Source: a virus. From it: a stretch of 30,750 bases of DNA. The stretch is taken from positions 1 through 30,750 of IMG/VR virus record IMGVR_UViG_3300030688_000091; one strand, given 5' to 3'. Both the position numbers and the translations under genes were made by a program. Of this stretch, positions 10,506 through 30,750 are shown one piece after another; position 1 is the first letter of the stretch; each line of letters begins with the position of its first letter. The notes beneath the pieces were generated by a model. It did no database searches. It saw only the letters and a list, made by a program, of their open reading frames with translations, and was not told the origin of the DNA.

Positions 10506-10523
10506 CCGGCCATGATCGACCGG
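10506..10523 (-). terminator. Rho-independent terminator after the Ser-X peptide gene
   Basis: Minus-strand CCGGTC-GATCAT-GGCCGG stem followed by GATTTTTTG (T run 10503-10498). It ends the 10954-10542 two-gene unit 19 nt after its last stop. Confidence 0.7.
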
Positions 10524-10541
10524 AAATTATTTTTAAGACCT

Positions 10542-10685
10542 CTACCACAACCACGACCGATACCCCGACCTCGACCCCGACCCCGACCTCGACCCCGACC
10601 ACGACCACGACCCCGACCCCGACCACGACCTCGACCACGACCACGACCCCGACCCCGACCTCGAATGTTTTTTTATAGCAATCAT
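10542..10685 (-). CDS. Ser-X dipeptide repeat micro-protein (47 aa)
   Basis: ATG 10685 overlaps the stop of the upstream gene (ATGA), the coupling typical of this genome; TAG is at 10542. After MIAIKKH, every second residue is Ser (TCG) and the alternating residue is Gly (GGG), Trp (TGG) or Arg (AGG), for about 16 repeats, ending YRSWLW. The DNA is a CGACCN hexamer array in which only the sixth base varies (A, C or T). A terminator follows 19 nt later, which supports expression. Frames encoding (Arg-Pro)n on the plus strand and (Gly-Arg)n on the minus strand also exist, but only this one has a coupled start. Confidence 0.5.
   Translation of the reverse strand: MIAIKKHSRSGSGSWSWSRSWSGSGSWSWSGSRSGSGSRSGYRSWLW
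10567..10664. repeat. Degenerate CGACCN hexamer tandem array (about 16 units)
   Basis: Sixteen consecutive CGACCN units in plus-strand orientation; N runs T C C T C A A C C A T A A C C T and is never G. Less regular copies extend left to about 10540. The array lies within the Ser-X reading frame. Confidence 0.9.
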
Positions 10686-10954
10686 TTTAGTACGCCAAAT
10701 GACTCAACCATGCTTGTCATAATGTAAAATTCGTTTGGCAGTGATTGTGCATCTTTCCATTCCGCGCTTGTAAATGCGCCGGTTTCGTAAACAATCTTTG
10801 GGTTTTCGAGCTTGACGTATTTATCGTTTACGCCAACAAGTTTACCTGTGTAAATGTACACCGCGCAAAATAATGTTATTGTTTGCCCGATTAGGCTAAC
10901 TAAGCCTTCATTTTCGACTTCAATTACTTCTACGGTTGGAGCTGCTATTTTCAT
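10682..10954 (-). CDS. Small phage protein (YTGKLVGVN...VYETGAF type)
   Basis: 90 aa. The sequence LIGQTITLFCAVYIYTGKLVGVND, then NPKIVYETGAF and LPNEFYIMTSMVESFGVLK, resembles a widespread small phage and bacterial protein family of unknown function, with a beta-rich SH3-like look. CAAGGA lies about 8 nt before ATG. The leader carries a hairpin-T-run module also found before the leucine-rich-repeat gene. It is coupled to the Ser-X micro-gene by ATGA. Confidence 0.7.
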   Translation of the reverse strand: MKIAAPTVEVIEVENEGLVSLIGQTITLFCAVYIYTGKLVGVNDKYVKLENPKIVYETGAFTSAEWKDAQSLPNEFYIMTSMVESFGVLK

Positions 10955-11025: not shown

Positions 11026-11337
11026 TTATTCTGGTTTATTGTCAGCGCTGTCGGCATACAGGTATCTCAGGCTTGATGGCAGCTCTGGCAGAGTCGTTGC
11101 GCTGTTGGCAGACAGGGTTTCCAGGCTTGCTGGCAGCTCTGGCAGAGTCGTTGCGCTGTTGGCAGACAGGGTTTCCAGGCTTGATGGCAGCTCTGGCAGA
11201 GTCGTTGCGCTGTTGGCAGACAGGGTTTCCAGGCTTGCTGGCAGCTCTGGCAATTCATCAAAACCATACAAATTAAGCTCAGCGCCTGTATCGTTGTTTT
11301 CTTTCCATTCGTTTATCAAATCTTGTGCTGTTTTCAT
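11026..11337 (-). CDS. Small leucine-rich-repeat protein
   Basis: 103 aa. After an N-terminal helix (MKTAQDLINEWKENN) come tandem 18-residue repeats of the form LPELPxSLETLSANSATT, where x alternates Ala/Ser. The LPELPxSLxxL core matches bacterial LRRs of the YopM/IpaH type, although here the units are 18 rather than 20-22 residues and few. Such folds bind proteins, so a decoy or host-interaction role is possible. At DNA level the repeats are nearly identical 54-bp units, so copy number may vary. Flanked on both sides by the repeated intergenic module. Confidence 0.7.
   Translation of the reverse strand: MKTAQDLINEWKENNDTGAELNLYGFDELPELPASLETLSANSATTLPELPSSLETLSANSATTLPELPASLETLSANSATTLPELPSSLRYLYADSADNKPE
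11072..11254. repeat. 54-bp tandem repeat inside the LRR gene
   Basis: Unit starts at 11072, 11126, 11180 and 11234 (CTTG[A/C]TGGCAGCTCTGGCA), almost identical except the A/C alternation; the last copy is partial. In frame, so unit gain or loss would change only LRR number. Confidence 0.9.
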
Positions 11338-11598: not shown

Positions 11599-11787
11599 AT
11601 GAAAAAACTTAAAGAATTGATACAAAAACGGGGCGATCAGGCCAAGCTGGCAAGGCTAATCGGTGTTTCACAACCATTACTATCTTACTGGTTGAAAGTA
11701 GGACAAATTCCTGTGCATCAGATTTATTTTGTTAGCAGGAAAACTGGTATCGCTGAAGAAGATTTATTACCTGAGAAAAAAGAATGA
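11599..11787 (+). CDS. Cro/CI-like (YdaS-type) helix-turn-helix regulator
   Basis: 62 aa. The HTH is visible at residues about 14-35: DQAKLARLIGVSQPLLSYWLKVG. The short size and the VSRKTGIAEEDLLPE C-terminus match Cro/YdaS-type DNA-binding proteins. It has no Shine-Dalgarno, and its ATG coincides with the predicted transcription start, so its mRNA is probably leaderless. It sits at a divergent promoter pair and probably represses one or both. Overlaps the next gene by 4 nt (ATGA). Confidence 0.8.
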   Translation: MKKLKELIQKRGDQAKLARLIGVSQPLLSYWLKVGQIPVHQIYFVSRKTGIAEEDLLPEKKE

Positions 11788-23155: not shown

Positions 23156-23341
23156 TTAATTTGTGTCAACAAAAAGATTCAATCGAGACAGAATAAATTT
23201 GCTCACACTTTGATTTGCTTGGCTTGCAAGCTCGTTAAGTCTTGATTCCTCCATATCTGTAACCCTGAATTTCACAAATTTAGAGCGTGTAGCGGGTTTA
23301 GCTGCATTGCGCTTTCCGGTCATGCCGTGCTGTTTAGTCAT
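23156..23341 (-). CDS. Ribbon-helix-helix-like regulator
   Basis: 61 aa. Basic N-terminus (MTKQHGMTGKRNAAKPATRS), then KFVKFRVTDMEESRLNELAS (strand plus helix) and QANQSVSKFILSRLNLF (second helix), the RHH layout of CopG/MobC-type proteins. GAGGTGAAATT precedes ATG. Divergent from the terminase gene across an operator-like palindrome, so it is a candidate repressor of the terminase and capsid genes; this is inference from position. Confidence 0.7.
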   Translation of the reverse strand: MTKQHGMTGKRNAAKPATRSKFVKFRVTDMEESRLNELASQANQSVSKFILSRLNLFVDTN

Positions 23342-23395: not shown

Positions 23396-23416
23396 AAATT
23401 AAACACTGTTCAATTA
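23396..23416. promoter_or_regulatory. Operator palindrome, site A (terminase promoter)
   Basis: AAATTAAACA-C-TGTTCAATTA, a slightly imperfect copy of the palindrome at 28811 and 28870. It overlaps the -35 of the terminase promoter. Confidence 0.75.
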
Positions 23417-23437
23417 ATCCGAAATGATGGGTATAAT
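23409..23437 (+). promoter_or_regulatory. Terminase operon promoter
   Basis: -10 TATAAT (23432-23437), 17-nt spacer, poor -35 TTCAAT (23409-23414) inside operator A. The ATG is 6 nt after the -10, so the mRNA would be leaderless. A poor -35 suggests activation or dependence on regulator release. Confidence 0.5.
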
Positions 23438-23443
23438 TGAGGC

Positions 23444-23977
23444 ATGGCAAAAAAACTCACACCGGAAGAATGGCAAGAAATAATTAGGCTGCATCTGATA
23501 GATGGTATCGGCGTAAGAGCGCTGTCTAAGCAATTTGGAGTGCCATCTAGTACGATTCAATCTCGTACAAAAACCGCACAAATCGCACAGGTAAAAGAAG
23601 TTGCAAATCAAATAGTTGATGTAAACCATAGATTCACTGATTTAGACGATTTCGCACAAGAATTAACAACTAGCCTAGCCTGCAAATTGCAGAATATTTC
23701 CGATTTAGCGGCCAGTGTTGCAGAGTCAGAAGCCAAGAGCGCAAGGAAGTTGTCAGCGATTAAAAGCATTCAGATTTTGAACTTAAATAAAGAAAATCCT
23801 GACCTGCAATCAGTGGCATTGATAAAGGTGCTTGGCGAGGCAGTCAATGACTCCATGAAGCCGGCATTTAATCTAATGAGTGCAAACAAGGAGGCAATCG
23901 ATAGACTCAACGGTCCCCAGGACAATAGCCTGCTGGAGTTGCTCGAAGAAATCGAAGACGAACTGAAAGATGACTAA
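23444..23977 (+). CDS. Terminase small subunit
   Basis: 177 aa. N-terminal HTH (EEWQEIIRLHLIDGIGVRAL, SKQFGVPSSTIQSR) for packaging-site recognition, a helical core and an acidic C-terminus (LLELLEEIEDELKDD). It overlaps the large subunit by 8 nt. Assignment rests on the HTH plus position directly before TerL. Confidence 0.8.
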   Translation: MAKKLTPEEWQEIIRLHLIDGIGVRALSKQFGVPSSTIQSRTKTAQIAQVKEVANQIVDVNHRFTDLDDFAQELTTSLACKLQNISDLAASVAESEAKSARKLSAIKSIQILNLNKENPDLQSVALIKVLGEAVNDSMKPAFNLMSANKEAIDRLNGPQDNSLLELLEEIEDELKDD

Positions 23978-25505
23978 AGCCGAGAAGGTTCGTAGGCTTG
24001 CAAAGCTGAAAGGCAGCTACAAGCTATTTGCGGCCAAGTGCTTAAAGATTAAAACCAAGTCCGGCGCTATCAGGCCTTTAATTTTCAACGGTCCACAGAA
24101 ATACATCGACGATAAGTTAAACGAGCAGCTCAGCAAAACTGGCAAGATTAGAGCGCTGATATTAAAAGGCCGGCAACAAGGCGCGTCGACATACACGGAA
24201 GGGCGGTTTTATTGGCGTACAGCGCTAAGTAAAGGCAAACAGGCGTACATCCTCACGCATGAGCAAGCTGCTACTGACAATCTGTTTGGGATGGCCAAAC
24301 GGTATCACGATAACTGCCATGCTGGAATCAGGCCGGTAACCAAGGCCGCAAATGCAAAAGAATTATCTTTCGGAGCGCTGGACTCTGGCTACAAGATCGG
24401 TACGGCTGGAAGCAAAGCGGTCGGCAGGTCAGGCACTATCCAATACTTTCATGGCAGCGAACTAGGATTTTGGCCGAACGCAGACGAACATTTTGCAGGC
24501 GTGGTGCAATGTATTGCTGATGCGGCGGGAACAGAAATAATTCTAGAGTCTACGGCCAATGGTGTTGGCGGAAAATTTCACGAACTATGGATGAAGGCCC
24601 AAGCAGGCGAAGGTGACTACATCGCTATTTTTGTTCCTTGGTTTTGGTCGCCGGAATATAGAGCTAACGCAACAGGATTTGTACCAACCAAGGACGAACT
24701 GAAAAAGCAAACGCTTTACGGCGTTACTCTTGAGCAATTGGCATGGAGGCGAGCCAAAACTAACGAAATAGGGAAAGATTTAACCGATCAAGAATACCCA
24801 TACTGCTGGCAAGACGCATTTCTCAGCAGCGGGCGCACGGTTTTTGACAAAGATCACATGTCGTCGGCCATAAAAGAGACATGGAAACCTATTGAGCAAT
24901 TAGAGTTATCTGGCGGACAATGGATAAAACGTGATGATGGGCGGCTAAAAGTATGGCAAAGGCCGGAGCGAGGCGTCAAATATTTTATTGGCGCGGACGT
25001 AGCGGAAGGGCTGGAAACCGGGGATTATTCCAGCGCTGATGTGCTAGAGTCACCATCTGGTCGGCAGGTTGCGCAGTGGCACGGTAAGTGTCCACCGGAT
25101 GTTTACGGTAAAATTATCCTAAAATCATTGGGAAACTGGTACAACCAGGCGTTTATCGGCGTTGAGAACAACAATCACGGACTTGCAACAAACATTGCAT
25201 TACGCGATTCAGGTTATGCTAATTTGTACGTGGAGCACCGGCTAGACGATAGAGGCAGCAACGATAAGGAAACCAAGCGACTTGGCTGGATGACGACCAG
25301 CAAGTCAAAGCCATATATAATCGACCAGTTGGCAGCGGAATTGCGCGACGGTACGCATGGCTTGGCGTGTAAAGAGACTGTTCAGGAAATGCAAACTTTT
25401 ATCGTGCTAGAAAACGGCAGCTATTCCGCAAACCTGAATTGCCACGACGATCGCGTTATGAGCCGCGCCATCGCCGGAGAAATGCTTAGACAACAACGAA
25501 TTTAA
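23970..25505 (+). CDS. Terminase large subunit (packaging ATPase-nuclease)
   Basis: 511 aa. Walker A LKGRQQGAST (residues 65-74), Walker B region TEIILESTANGVGGKF, and an RNase H-like nuclease with FIGADVAEG, VENNNHG and CHDDRVMSRAIA. The ATPase pumps DNA into the prohead and the nuclease cuts the concatemer. Full length. Followed 15 nt later by the portal gene. Confidence 0.95.
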   Translation: MTKAEKVRRLAKLKGSYKLFAAKCLKIKTKSGAIRPLIFNGPQKYIDDKLNEQLSKTGKIRALILKGRQQGASTYTEGRFYWRTALSKGKQAYILTHEQAATDNLFGMAKRYHDNCHAGIRPVTKAANAKELSFGALDSGYKIGTAGSKAVGRSGTIQYFHGSELGFWPNADEHFAGVVQCIADAAGTEIILESTANGVGGKFHELWMKAQAGEGDYIAIFVPWFWSPEYRANATGFVPTKDELKKQTLYGVTLEQLAWRRAKTNEIGKDLTDQEYPYCWQDAFLSSGRTVFDKDHMSSAIKETWKPIEQLELSGGQWIKRDDGRLKVWQRPERGVKYFIGADVAEGLETGDYSSADVLESPSGRQVAQWHGKCPPDVYGKIILKSLGNWYNQAFIGVENNNHGLATNIALRDSGYANLYVEHRLDDRGSNDKETKRLGWMTTSKSKPYIIDQLAAELRDGTHGLACKETVQEMQTFIVLENGSYSANLNCHDDRVMSRAIAGEMLRQQRI

Positions 25506-25520
25506 TTGCCGGGAGGCATC

Positions 25521-27731
25521 ATGCAGCTAATACCAACCCTTAACACAGACCCAACTGAAGATAAAGGCGCTGGAGATGTAACCACCGCTAGCGATGATGT
25601 TTTGGGCATGATGCTGCAAAAAAAGTGGACTAATTGGAGCACTACGCGCCGCAGGATTGAAGAGCGATGGCTTGAAGATTTGCGCACGTTTAGTCAGCAG
25701 AACGAGCCGGGCGAGGAATTAAGCAAGTTTCACGGCCATATCTATATCGGCCAAAACCGGGTCAAATGCAACTCAGCCTACGCACGAATAGTCGATCTGC
25801 TATTTGCGACCAACGATGAGCATTGGTCAATCAAGCCAGTGCCGGTAACCAGCCGAGACGAGTCAAACCCGGCTAATTTTGCGGCGATAGAGGCCGATAA
25901 GCAGGTCTCCGAAGCGATGACTGTAGAGGTCGAAGCGCAGATGAAAGACTTGAAATACGATGATTACATCAAGCAAGCTTTGCACGAAGGATCAATTATT
26001 GGGACTGGATGCGTAAAAGGGATCATTCCAACAACCAGATTCGATGAATCGTGGCAAAAAACAGTTGGAATTGATGGCACGACAACATGGGAATTGGTAA
26101 AAACAGAATACCCAGCTCCGGAAATGGGCGCCCCATCGGTTTTTAATGTCTACCCAGATCCATACGCCACTCGAAAAGAGGATATGTCGGGCGTATTTGA
26201 ACGCCATTCGCTCAATCGTCAACAGTTTGTTGACCTGAAAAACGACAAACGATTCGACTCGACAAAAATTGATGAGATATTACGAGAATCGTCGCTTGGT
26301 AACCATACTGCGCTATGGCATGAGTCCATTAGACGGACTATCGCTGAAATTACCGACACCACCGCAAATATGGCCGAACAGTACGATCTATTGGAGTATT
26401 GGGGTCAAGCTACTGGACTTGTTCTGCAACAAGCCGGCATGTCCCAAGCCGATGAAATAGGCGTTTATTGGGTCAATGTCTGGACGTGCGCATCAAAAAC
26501 ACTGCTGTGCAAAATAATGCCGATGAAACGGCAGGTCATACCATACAATTTCTTTATCTACGAAAAAGTTCCACACCAGTTTTGGGGGGTTTCGCCAGCA
26601 AGGACAGGCAGGAGTTCGCAGCTAATTATCAATGGCGCGTGGCGATCTACGCTTGACGGCATGGCGATGGCATCCGGCCCAATGTCGGAAGTTAATGTGT
26701 CAATGCTTCGAGAAGGTCAAGACCCGACAAAACTTAGACCGTGGCAAACGTTTGTTAGAGATAAAGGAGATCCGAGTTACCCGGCTGTGCGATGGTTTCA
26801 GCCGGAGATTCCGGTCGCTGCTCTGATGAATATATTAGAGGCAGCGAAAACCACAAGCGACGAAGAGACCAGTATGCCGGCGTACAGCTACGGATCTGAC
26901 TCCCCAGGCATAAACGACAATACAGCTAGTGGTACGGCAATGCATCTAAATCAAGCAAGCTTGCCCATTAAGCTTGTGGTGCGCAATGTTGAGGACGGAT
27001 GCATTACGCCCGTGGTGCAAAGCCTTGTTGACTGGAATATGCAGTGGTCAGACAAGGAGGAAATCAAAGGCAATCACAAAGTCACGGTTAACGGCGGATC
27101 TACAATGATCATGAAAGAGCAGCAGGTACAGCAAAAAATTCACTTTTTAGCTATGACGGCCAACCCAATAGACGCGGCGTTCGTTGATCGCAAATATTTA
27201 CTGCGCGAAACCGCAAAGGATATGGATATTGACGCTACGCTAGCTGTTCCCGATCAATTGCCGCAATTTGATTTACCGCCGCCACACCCCAACCCGGTCG
27301 AAGAAGCGAAGGCCGGATTGCTGCAAGCACAAGCCAAGCTTGCCGAGGCCAATACCAGATTGGCGGACGCCAATGTTGCCAACAAAAACATTAATACGCA
27401 GTTCGAAAGCGTCATGACTGGCGGCCAAATCCTTGCTAACCCTGGAACCGTAGCTGTTTCTGACTCGCTACTGCAAAGCGCTGGATATGTTGATGCTAAC
27501 GGCGCGCCGGTTGCTAATGTTCCGCTTGGAGCTAGACAAATGCCAGTACCGGCACAAGTTCAAGGCGTACCAATGCCGCAAAACACCCACCCGAACATGC
27601 CAGCATTGCCACCGCAACCAGGATCACCGGGCATAGGTGCGCGGGAAGGAATCGAGGGCGGCGGAATACAAGCCAGGGCAACAGGCGGCCCAGTTGAAGC
27701 TGGAAAGCCGTACTTAGTTGGTGAGCAATGA
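25521..27731 (+). CDS. Portal protein (podovirus-type, large)
   Basis: 736 aa from ATG 25521 (GGGAGG upstream); a TTG at 25506 is less likely. It forms the ring through which DNA enters. Typical portal regions: ERWLEDLRTFSQQN, YIGQNRVKCNSAYARIVDLL, IIGTGCVKGIIPTTR, FNVYPDPYA, FFIYEKVPHQFWGVSPA and ASGTAMHLNQASLPI. A C-terminal helix (AKAGLLQAQAKLAEAN) follows. The last residues ATGGPVEAGKPYLVGEQ match a motif usually continued by GPEL; here TGA interrupts it. Confidence 0.88.
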   Translation: MQLIPTLNTDPTEDKGAGDVTTASDDVLGMMLQKKWTNWSTTRRRIEERWLEDLRTFSQQNEPGEELSKFHGHIYIGQNRVKCNSAYARIVDLLFATNDEHWSIKPVPVTSRDESNPANFAAIEADKQVSEAMTVEVEAQMKDLKYDDYIKQALHEGSIIGTGCVKGIIPTTRFDESWQKTVGIDGTTTWELVKTEYPAPEMGAPSVFNVYPDPYATRKEDMSGVFERHSLNRQQFVDLKNDKRFDSTKIDEILRESSLGNHTALWHESIRRTIAEITDTTANMAEQYDLLEYWGQATGLVLQQAGMSQADEIGVYWVNVWTCASKTLLCKIMPMKRQVIPYNFFIYEKVPHQFWGVSPARTGRSSQLIINGAWRSTLDGMAMASGPMSEVNVSMLREGQDPTKLRPWQTFVRDKGDPSYPAVRWFQPEIPVAALMNILEAAKTTSDEETSMPAYSYGSDSPGINDNTASGTAMHLNQASLPIKLVVRNVEDGCITPVVQSLVDWNMQWSDKEEIKGNHKVTVNGGSTMIMKEQQVQQKIHFLAMTANPIDAAFVDRKYLLRETAKDMDIDATLAVPDQLPQFDLPPPHPNPVEEAKAGLLQAQAKLAEANTRLADANVANKNINTQFESVMTGGQILANPGTVAVSDSLLQSAGYVDANGAPVANVPLGARQMPVPAQVQGVPMPQNTHPNMPALPPQPGSPGIGAREGIEGGGIQARATGGPVEAGKPYLVGEQ

Positions 27732-27935
27732 CCGGAACTGATCATCCCACAGCAAGGAGGCCAAGTTCTAAATAACAATCAAACCGTGCAAGCCTTCGGC
27801 GCTGGGATGAATGGCGCACCTTTGCCAACTCCTGAAAGCCCTGATTATGATGTTGCCGGATATGTGGCTAAGTATGGTCAGCCCGACCAAAGCAAAGGTC
27901 AGCACTCGGTCATAGCGGAAATATTATGCACGTAG
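27729..27935 (+). pseudogene. C-terminal portal extension beyond an in-frame TGA
   Basis: After TGA 27729-27731 the same frame continues for 67 codons to TAG 27935: PELIIPQQGGQVLNNNQTVQ, then PDYDVAGYVAKYGQPDQS. With TGA read as GGA the junction would be LVGEQ-G-PELIIP, exactly the common phage motif, so the original protein probably ran through. An internal ATG (MNGAPLPTP) could restart translation without a good ribosome site. Confidence 0.6.
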
Positions 27936-28775: not shown

Positions 28776-28805
28776 CGTCACTAAGCGTCACTAAGCGTCA
28801 CTAAG
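28776..28805 (+). repeat. Three tandem 10-bp repeats upstream of the capsid promoter
   Basis: CGTCACTAAG occurs at 28776, 28786 and 28796 without spacing. One helical turn per unit, 28 nt before the -35; candidate activator-binding array. Confidence 0.85.
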
Positions 28806-28810
28806 ACAAA

Positions 28811-28831
28811 TAATTGAACACTGTTTAATTA
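28811..28831. promoter_or_regulatory. Operator palindrome, site B
   Basis: TAATTGAACA-C-TGTTTAATTA, one mismatch from perfect symmetry, just upstream of the -35 of the capsid promoter. Confidence 0.8.
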
Positions 28832-28833
28832 TT

Positions 28834-28863
28834 TTGTTTCAAATCAGTAAAATGGTGTAGAAT
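28834..28863 (+). promoter_or_regulatory. Promoter of the scaffold-capsid operon
   Basis: -35 TTGTTT (28834-28839), 18-nt spacer, -10 TAGAAT (28858-28863). The start would be near 28870, at the edge of operator C. Confidence 0.55.
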
Positions 28864-28869
28864 TATTTG

Positions 28870-28890
28870 TAATTAAACAATGTTTAATTA
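28870..28890. promoter_or_regulatory. Operator palindrome, site C
   Basis: TAATTAAACA-A-TGTTTAATTA, a perfect 10+1+10 palindrome covering the predicted transcription start. Bound protein would block initiation or elongation. Confidence 0.85.
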
Positions 28891-28953
28891 CCGTGGGAGC
28901 AAGCGTTAAGCCCTCCTTATGTCGTGAGACAAACCCAAACTTAATTGAGACTT

Positions 28954-29865
28954 ATGGCAACCATTGACCATGAAGCGCTAGATAAAGAGGCTGACGCCGA
29001 AATTGCCGAACTATACGGTATAGATACGGCGCTCAGCCCTGATTCCCTGGAAACCAGCACAGAATCGAACAAAAACACTGATGTGGTAGTTGACCCCGGC
29101 AAAGACGCAGGCACAGTCGAGACCATTAATAATGCAGAAGAAACCGTGCCTAAATCACGGTATGACGCTGCTGTTAGAGCGATGAATGACGCACAGAGAG
29201 AGGCGGCGGCACTGAGAAATCAGGTTGGGCCTATCGAAGCGGAAAACCAACAGCTCAAGCAGCAAATCACTGTATTGCAACAAAAGGAATCTGATGTTGA
29301 TGCAGATCCAGATGACGTAAGCAAATACTCACTGGACCAAGCGCAAAAACTCTACCCAGAATTAACGGCAGCATTTAAAGAAATAGCTGATCTGAAAGCA
29401 CAACTTTCCACGGTCACTAAAGATTTCGGCAATGTCAAAACCGTTACAGACGAGTTTCAGCAAACAGCGCAACTTACAGCTGCACAGCAACATTTTGCTG
29501 CTATAGACGCAGCCCACCCTGATCGTAAAGAAATCATGGCAAGCCCTGAGTTTAGTGATTGGCTTATAAACCAAGGTCCACTTACTCAGCAAGCAATACG
29601 CCAAGGCACGACCAGGGACGTTATTTCGGCATTCGATTTGTTCAGAGCCGCGCATCCTCGCGCCAAGCAAGCGGCAGATCAAAGCAAAGCAGACAAATTA
29701 GCCGCAGCCCGCGACGCCTCTAATCCGAACATCAAGACAACACAGAGAGCGGAAGGCAAGGTTAAGTACACACTACGAATGATCGACGCTATGGACGCCA
29801 AAGAGTACGCGAGGCATGAAGATGCAATCGACGCAGCTTTGGCGGCTGGCGAGGTCGAACCTTAA
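28954..29865 (+). CDS. Scaffold-like capsid assembly protein
   Basis: 303 aa from ATG 28954; a TTG 9 nt upstream is in frame. Acidic N-terminus (IDHEALDKEADAEIAELYGI), a long coiled coil (about residues 75-175, AVRAMNDAQREAAALRNQVG) and a helical C-terminus. Size, composition and position directly before the coat gene fit a scaffold that guides prohead assembly. First gene of the regulated capsid transcript. Confidence 0.7.
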   Translation: MATIDHEALDKEADAEIAELYGIDTALSPDSLETSTESNKNTDVVVDPGKDAGTVETINNAEETVPKSRYDAAVRAMNDAQREAAALRNQVGPIEAENQQLKQQITVLQQKESDVDADPDDVSKYSLDQAQKLYPELTAAFKEIADLKAQLSTVTKDFGNVKTVTDEFQQTAQLTAAQQHFAAIDAAHPDRKEIMASPEFSDWLINQGPLTQQAIRQGTTRDVISAFDLFRAAHPRAKQAADQSKADKLAAARDASNPNIKTTQRAEGKVKYTLRMIDAMDAKEYARHEDAIDAALAAGEVEP

Positions 29866-29896: not shown

Positions 29897-30750
29897 ATGC
29901 CAGTTACTATTGCAAGACAGGGTAATAACTTACCCAATGGCGTATTTTTACCTACCATTTGGTCTAAAAAGCTGAATGCTAAGTATTATGCGCAAACATT
30001 CTTGAACGACATTACCAACTCGGATTACGAAGGTGAGATTGCCGGACAAGGTTCGCAGGTTAATATTCGCCAGCGCCCAACTGTGGAAGTTGTAGACCAC
30101 CAGGAAGATTCCGACATTGAATACCAAGACATTTCAGACGAAATGATTTCATTGTCCATCAACTACGCTAAACGATTTGCTTTCAAAGTTGGCGACATTG
30201 ATAAAGCTCAATCTGATATTGCCATACTCAATGAACTGACGACTGACGCCGGCTTTCAGATGAAAATCTCAATTGACCAAACAGTGTTGGGTTCGATTTA
30301 CGGTAGTGCTGGCACTGTGTTGCCAACGATTACACTGGATAAAACCAACGTAGTTGATTGGCTGATCGACCAAGAAGTGGCGCTGGAATTGAACAACATT
30401 CCACCAAACCAACGCTGGGCAGTCATTTCACCCAAAGTCGCCGGTTTGATCCAAAAATCAGACCTTAAAAACGTGAGCTTAACCGGGGATACCAAATCTA
30501 TTATTCGGTCAAACTTGAATAATGGCAGGCTAGGCGAGGTCGGAGGCTTGACTTTGTACGTGTCAAACAACTTGGCTCGCGCAGGCAATCTGTATCAATG
30601 CGTTTCCGGGCATAAATCCGCAGTCACCTATGCCTCACAGATCACGAAAGTCGAAAACGTGCGGCTGGAAAGAAAATTCGGCGATGCAGTAAGGGGCTTG
30701 AACGTCTATGGGTTCAAGGTGTTAATTCCGTCTGGTCTGGTTTCTGCTCC
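29897..30750 (+). CDS. Major capsid protein (3' end outside window)
   Basis: ATG 29897 follows TAGGAG. 284 residues are visible and the frame is open at the right edge. MPVTIARQGNNLPNGVFLPT, then IWSKKLNAKYYAQTFLNDIT and DYEGEIAGQGSQVNIRQRPT, with WAVISPKVAGLIQKSD and VGGLTLYVSNNLARAG, are typical of HK97-fold coat proteins of podovirus-like phages. Order terminase-portal-scaffold-coat supports it. Confidence 0.88.
   Translation, partial: MPVTIARQGNNLPNGVFLPTIWSKKLNAKYYAQTFLNDITNSDYEGEIAGQGSQVNIRQRPTVEVVDHQEDSDIEYQDISDEMISLSINYAKRFAFKVGDIDKAQSDIAILNELTTDAGFQMKISIDQTVLGSIYGSAGTVLPTITLDKTNVVDWLIDQEVALELNNIPPNQRWAVISPKVAGLIQKSDLKNVSLTGDTKSIIRSNLNNGRLGEVGGLTLYVSNNLARAGNLYQCVSGHKSAVTYASQITKVENVRLERKFGDAVRGLNVYGFKVLIPSGLVSA

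Follow-up and report, generated by a model that had tools for sequence, protein, structure and literature searches.

Palindromes at the terminase and capsid promoters of a phage as probable operators of a host TetR repressor linked to phospholipid repair

The DNA analysed here, referred to as the window, is a stretch of 30,750 nucleotides (positions 1 to 30,750 of the IMG/VR virus record IMGVR_UViG_3300030688_000091). It carries three copies of a 21-bp palindrome at the predicted promoters of its packaging and head genes. The question raised by this locus is which protein reads these palindromes, and whether that protein is encoded by the phage or by its host.

Palindromes at the packaging and head promoters

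The first-pass annotation had claimed three palindromes at 23396-23416, 28811-28831, and 28870-28890, here named A, B, and C. They were confirmed there with 2, 1, and 0 mismatches, respectively. Promoter prediction also bore out the claimed layout, in which the scaffold-capsid promoter lies between B and C, and A overlaps the terminase -35 box. The features of this region are as follows.

23156-23341, minus strand: RHH (NikA-like) gene, divergent from TerS (PF21983)
23396-23416, no strand: putative operator A, AAATTAAACACTGTTCAATTA, 2 mismatches, in the divergent gap between RHH and TerS, overlapping the terminase -35
23409-23437, plus strand: predicted terminase promoter, TTCAAT (23409-23414), 17 bp, TATAAT (23432-23437), by consensus prediction only
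23444-23977, plus strand: candidate terminase small subunit (TerS), with a homologue (56% amino acid identity) in a Methylococcales MAG contig
23970-25505, plus strand: terminase large subunit (TerL; phrog_2, phrog_24361)
25524-27731, plus strand: SU10-type portal protein (PF23899)
28811-28831, no strand: putative operator B, TAATTGAACACTGTTTAATTA, 1 mismatch, either over the scaffold -35 or just 5' of it
28825-28863, plus strand: predicted scaffold-capsid promoter region, TTAATT-17-TAAAAT (28825-28853) or TTGTTT-18-TAGAAT (28834-28863), by prediction only
28870-28890, no strand: putative operator C, TAATTAAACAATGTTTAATTA, 0 mismatches (a perfect palindrome), beginning at the predicted scaffold start site
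28894-28953, plus strand: conserved leader with a GTCGNGAGAC hairpin, situated behind operator C and ahead of the scaffold gene
28954-29865, plus strand: scaffold-like gene 5' of the major capsid gene (phrog_13678, function not annotated; scaffold by position)
29897-30748, plus strand: major capsid protein, the gene being cut by the window end

By consensus prediction only, each of the three palindromes lies at the promoter of its putatively regulated gene, and the right arm of A coincides with the terminase -35 box. The start site of the scaffold transcript was placed approximately, since two overlapping -10 boxes are possible (TAAAAT at 28848-28853 and TAGAAT at 28858-28863). None of 100 dinucleotide shuffles contained a match to the palindromes, chance expectation in the window being none, and a search of the whole window with up to four mismatches revealed no copies beyond A, B, and C. 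A role of the palindromes as RNA hairpins was rejected: as A and B are located upstream of the predicted transcripts, DNA operators are the preferred reading.

The leader behind operator C is common to the phage loci L006, L007, L022, and L052 (14480-14545 in L006 and 4015-4085 in L007). The relative L006, whose TerL is 62% identical, has the palindrome AATTAAACATCGTTTAATT at the same place, 5' of the scaffold gene. The relatives L007 and L022 keep the leader with its hairpin although both are devoid of the operator, which speaks against the TetR reading given below. When the capsid leader and the whole contigs were scanned against Rfam, nothing passed the threshold. A scan of viral contigs for the leader motif returned 28 stretches, with the true leader only in L052 and L147, which are relatives of the window. 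It should be noted that in L007 (80-1531 and 5250-6250) TerL apparently contains an intein, and an insert that codes for a homing-endonuclease-like protein splits the capsid gene.

Repeats were also seen in the window. Three tandem copies of GTCACTAAGC (28776-28805) lie immediately 5' of operator B. A tandem repeat gene at 11026-11337 is built of SLETLSANSATTLPELP units with near-identical DNA repeats, and in a long simple repeat at 10512-10700 one strand codes for a Pro-Arg run and the opposite strand for a Val-Gly run.

The palindrome in bacterial genomes

One genome per species (84,980 in all) was scanned with TAATTRAACRNYGTTYAATTA, which gave 68 loci, many of them in Methylobacter, Methylomonas, and Methylomicrobium. 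A TetR protein of one family was encoded within 400 bp of the site in 21 of the 68 loci. In 14 of them, mainly from methanotrophs, the site was directly 5' of a gene for an Aas-type acyltransferase, followed by lplT where seen. We take these two genes to be aas and lplT from sequence resemblance recognised on reading, not by family search. Twelve aas promoters of methanotrophs were examined, and in each of them the TTGAAC of the operator forms the -35 box and stands 16-17 bp from the -10.

The exact 19-mer was present in 24 of 201 sampled Methylococcales genomes, nearly always as a single copy, and the same sequence written backwards was present in none (0/201). All 24 site-positive genomes encode the TetR protein, which was found in 60 of 121 Methylococcales genomes overall (E ≤ 0.001). 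It is also encoded in MAGs whose operators lie in phage sequence, and it is present in every Methylococcales genome or MAG with the operator that was checked. The first-pass annotation would have taken many copies scattered at random in the host genome as a refutation. The opposite was found: host genomes mostly have a single exact copy, placed at a functional promoter.

In many cases no more than about 5 kb separates the TetR gene from the site, as in the Methylobacter order TetR - MFS - lplT - aas - site. Its product consists of the TetR_N (PF00440) and TetR_C_33 (PF13305) domains and resembles the uncharacterised structure 3cjd (E 8.6e-38), and an NCBIfam search gave no equivalog above the cut-off. 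The front of the TetR gene often has two to three operator copies, which fits the expectation for autoregulation. On this genomic evidence, the methanotroph TetR appears to control the aas-lplT operon of lysophospholipid repair; in other proteobacteria, it is the TetR gene itself that the site adjoins. Methylobacter sp. BlB1, whose TetR protein is encoded at L203:1310-1909, Methylomonas koyamae R-45383, and Methylomicrobium sp. RS1 have the host side of the circuit, which is consequently open to direct testing.

Bacteroidota (Spirosoma and Algoriphagus; L195 and L215) also have the operator beside a TetR gene matching the same profile, with a TolC-like gene adjacent. At single genome loci it stands before a desaturase-like (L212), a FabH-like (L191), and a PspA-like gene (L192), hinting at a wider membrane regulon.

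A Methylococcales host for the window phage is indicated indirectly. The TerS homologue in the Methylococcales MAG contig has an operator with one mismatch at the promoter of its operon, and positions 27666-27905 of the window are 69% identical in DNA to a Methylobacter phage contig. A comparison of the window DNA with 311 Methylococcales genomes brought up homologous stretches as well as the host operator; it yielded no CRISPR spacer that was convincing. Such a host is disfavoured by the near absence of the window TerL from Methylococcales genomes, 301 of which gave one weak relative only.

The palindrome in other phages and prophages

The palindrome was found in many other phages of the IMG/VR collection, some of them having two to four copies. 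The first-pass pattern AATTRAACANNGTTYAATT gave many asymmetric chance matches among the matches listed, and those with an asymmetric centre were therefore used as an internal control for the symmetric sites. Among the matches listed, the ratio of intergenic to other positions was 45:9 for symmetric-centre sites and 10:30 for asymmetric-centre look-alikes of the same pattern (Fisher p = 1.4e-8). The 21-mer occurred in 22 stretches of the viral collection, compared with 0 for an inside-out palindrome of equal composition. Comparison of the sites, together with the scans of genomes and viral contigs, yielded the refined consensus AATTRAAC-RNY-GTTYAATT, which B and C fit exactly and A fits exactly over the 19-bp core AATTAAACACTGTTCAATT.

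The phage genes next to the sites belong to families led by terminase (TerL and TerS) and major head proteins; protease was also matched. Control intergenic points from the same short contigs gave no TerL or major head family among the best 25 families listed, a comparison that is qualitative. The operator precedes TerS in one phage (G007), is present in two copies ahead of TerS-TerL in another (G004), and in a third (G005) stands before the scaffold gene, the portal gene, the head of the structural operon, and a virion gene. In a phage contig of a Methylobacter MAG (G015:C212), sites are located directly before TerS, before the scaffold gene, and before a large virion gene. A prophage beside csrA, lysC, and alaS in a Methylococcaceae MAG (G016) has a site directly 5' of TerL. 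A prophage remnant in a Methylococcales genome (G163) has operators directly 5' of TerL and of the portal gene, and the same genome also contains the aas operator and TetR.

The site-bearing phages fall into four clusters without detectable shared proteins, or nine at 50% identity. In several independent lineages, phage promoters are enriched for the sites, and phages with no fewer than four unrelated head modules have the operator immediately 5' of TerS/TerL, portal, or scaffold/capsid genes. According to promoter prediction, most phage sites cover the -35, the -10, or the start, and the position of the operator relative to the promoter varies between sites. In the locus L186 (6726, 7204, and 12053), a cassette of an operator followed by a TTGACATTCC promoter is repeated 5' of two distinct small genes, and an additional operator adjoins sigma-like and Rha/Ant-like genes.

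A probable host repressor at phage late genes

We consider it likely that the palindromes are operators of the host TetR protein (TetR_N + TetR_C_33), by which the phage late genes would be wired to a host repressor. A TetR profile search of 5,420 ORFs from phage loci revealed no member of the family, and no TetR homologue was found in a scan of the viral contigs that used two short peptide patterns only. As judged on the window of an incomplete phage genome, the phage does not appear to have a TetR gene of its own.

The idea of the first-pass annotation that one repressor acts on both terminase and capsid is well supported: the layout fits it and recurs in the Methylobacter phage contig and in the prophage remnant with sites at TerL and portal. 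Its candidates for the repressor, the RHH protein (23156-23341) and the Cro/YdaS-like HTH protein at 11599, fared differently. For the RHH protein it may be said that its gene diverges from the terminase operator in the window and that an RHH-like gene is also beside the TerL operator in the G016 and G163 prophages. However, the operator is not restricted to RHH-encoding phages, as bacterial genomes have it next to the TetR gene and in aas promoters, away from any phage, and it is also seen in phages without RHH at the site. The gene at 11599 has no operator in its vicinity. It is thus very unlikely that a phage-encoded protein of either kind occupies all three sites and shuts down terminase along with capsid; RHH could be just another regulated gene.

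In the mechanism that we propose, the phage would have put the host operator over the terminase -35 and on either side of the scaffold-capsid promoter. A dimer of the host TetR would bind these sites as it would at aas and block RNA polymerase, so that packaging and head genes would be kept silent in a prophage or at an early stage of infection. Since the host TetR site precedes packaging or capsid genes in several unrelated phages, it is probably the host switch that decides the timing of virion building. The sequences show the sites, their positions, the host consensus, the linkage to TetR and aas, and the recurrence in unrelated phages; from these we infer binding, repression, and the release signal. 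Release might be brought about by a lipid ligand reporting membrane damage; as Aas-LplT repairs lysophospholipids and protects against phospholipases, TetR may sense lysophospholipid-type lipids. Alternatively, a scarce repressor might be titrated as phage genomes, with three operators each, multiply. As the host usually has one exact site, such titration could couple head building to replication, and both ways of release may act together.

The number of sites also bears on a different reading, in which they are decoys: multicopy phage operators would titrate the host TetR, and the derepressed aas-lplT would guard the membrane of the infected cell, with effects on phage promoters being secondary. 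Given that host genomes usually have a single exact copy, the small number of operators in each replicating phage genome could suffice for this. The sites are not placed arbitrarily, however: in unrelated phages they coincide with or adjoin promoters that immediately precede the genes for TerS/TerL, portal, and scaffold, and we regard the decoy role as unlikely. Occlusion need not be the sole mode of action, given the variable spacing between operator and promoter, and TetR might instead activate, or repress at some sites and activate at others. Site B and the L186 sites, which are upstream of predicted -35 boxes, would suit an activator. Against this, the sites at host aas, at window A, and in L067 overlap the -35, and those at C and in L006, L189, and L278 cover the predicted start, as fits blocking; we hold activation, whether at all or at some of the sites, to be highly improbable.

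Starting from the preferred reading of a host TetR repressor, a broader proposal can be put forward tentatively, and we hold it to be possible rather than probable. Unrelated phages of methanotrophs and other proteobacteria may have independently put virion assembly under a host repressor of membrane phospholipid damage. Heads would then be started only upon membrane damage or repressor titration, making a lipid-gated or copy-number-gated late switch.

Host LexA is a repressor with an inducing signal that is used as a lysogeny switch, and it responds to DNA damage. Temperate phages under LexA control, GIL01 among them, are a precedent for regulation by the host (PMC6182141). The present case is alike in involving a host repressor and differs in its operator, AATTRAAC-RNY-GTTYAATT, which is linked to TetR_C_33 and aas-lplT. 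The closest concept is the "lytic deferment" described for CtrA, whose sites recur in unrelated alphaproteobacterial phages and are bound by host CtrA, which regulates these phages (PMC9437464). In both cases, sites of a host regulator are concentrated in promoters of several unrelated phage lineages, and entry into the lytic cycle is proposed to depend on the state of the host. Binding was demonstrated experimentally for CtrA, a response regulator of the cell cycle (PMC9437464), whereas here a TetR linked to phospholipid repair has predicted sites known from sequence, and these sites, unlike those of CtrA, are located at packaging and head genes.

Work on Aas-LplT, cited in PMC12663445, describes a system of lysophospholipid repair and protection against phospholipases; in methanotrophs, it is to aas-lplT that the host copy of the operator belongs. 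Searches of the open-access literature found no report of a TetR operator for aas-lplT or of its link to phages, and no match for a TetR-controlled phage late region. The use of a phospholipid-repair TetR for phage late genes, for which we thus found no prior report in that literature, would add to the known cases of phage expression controlled by host regulators. If true, it would link the timing of phage late genes to the envelope-repair circuit of the host, assign a predicted operator to a TetR family that has not otherwise been characterised, and give a regulator and operator to a little-known group of phages that infect globally important methane oxidisers.
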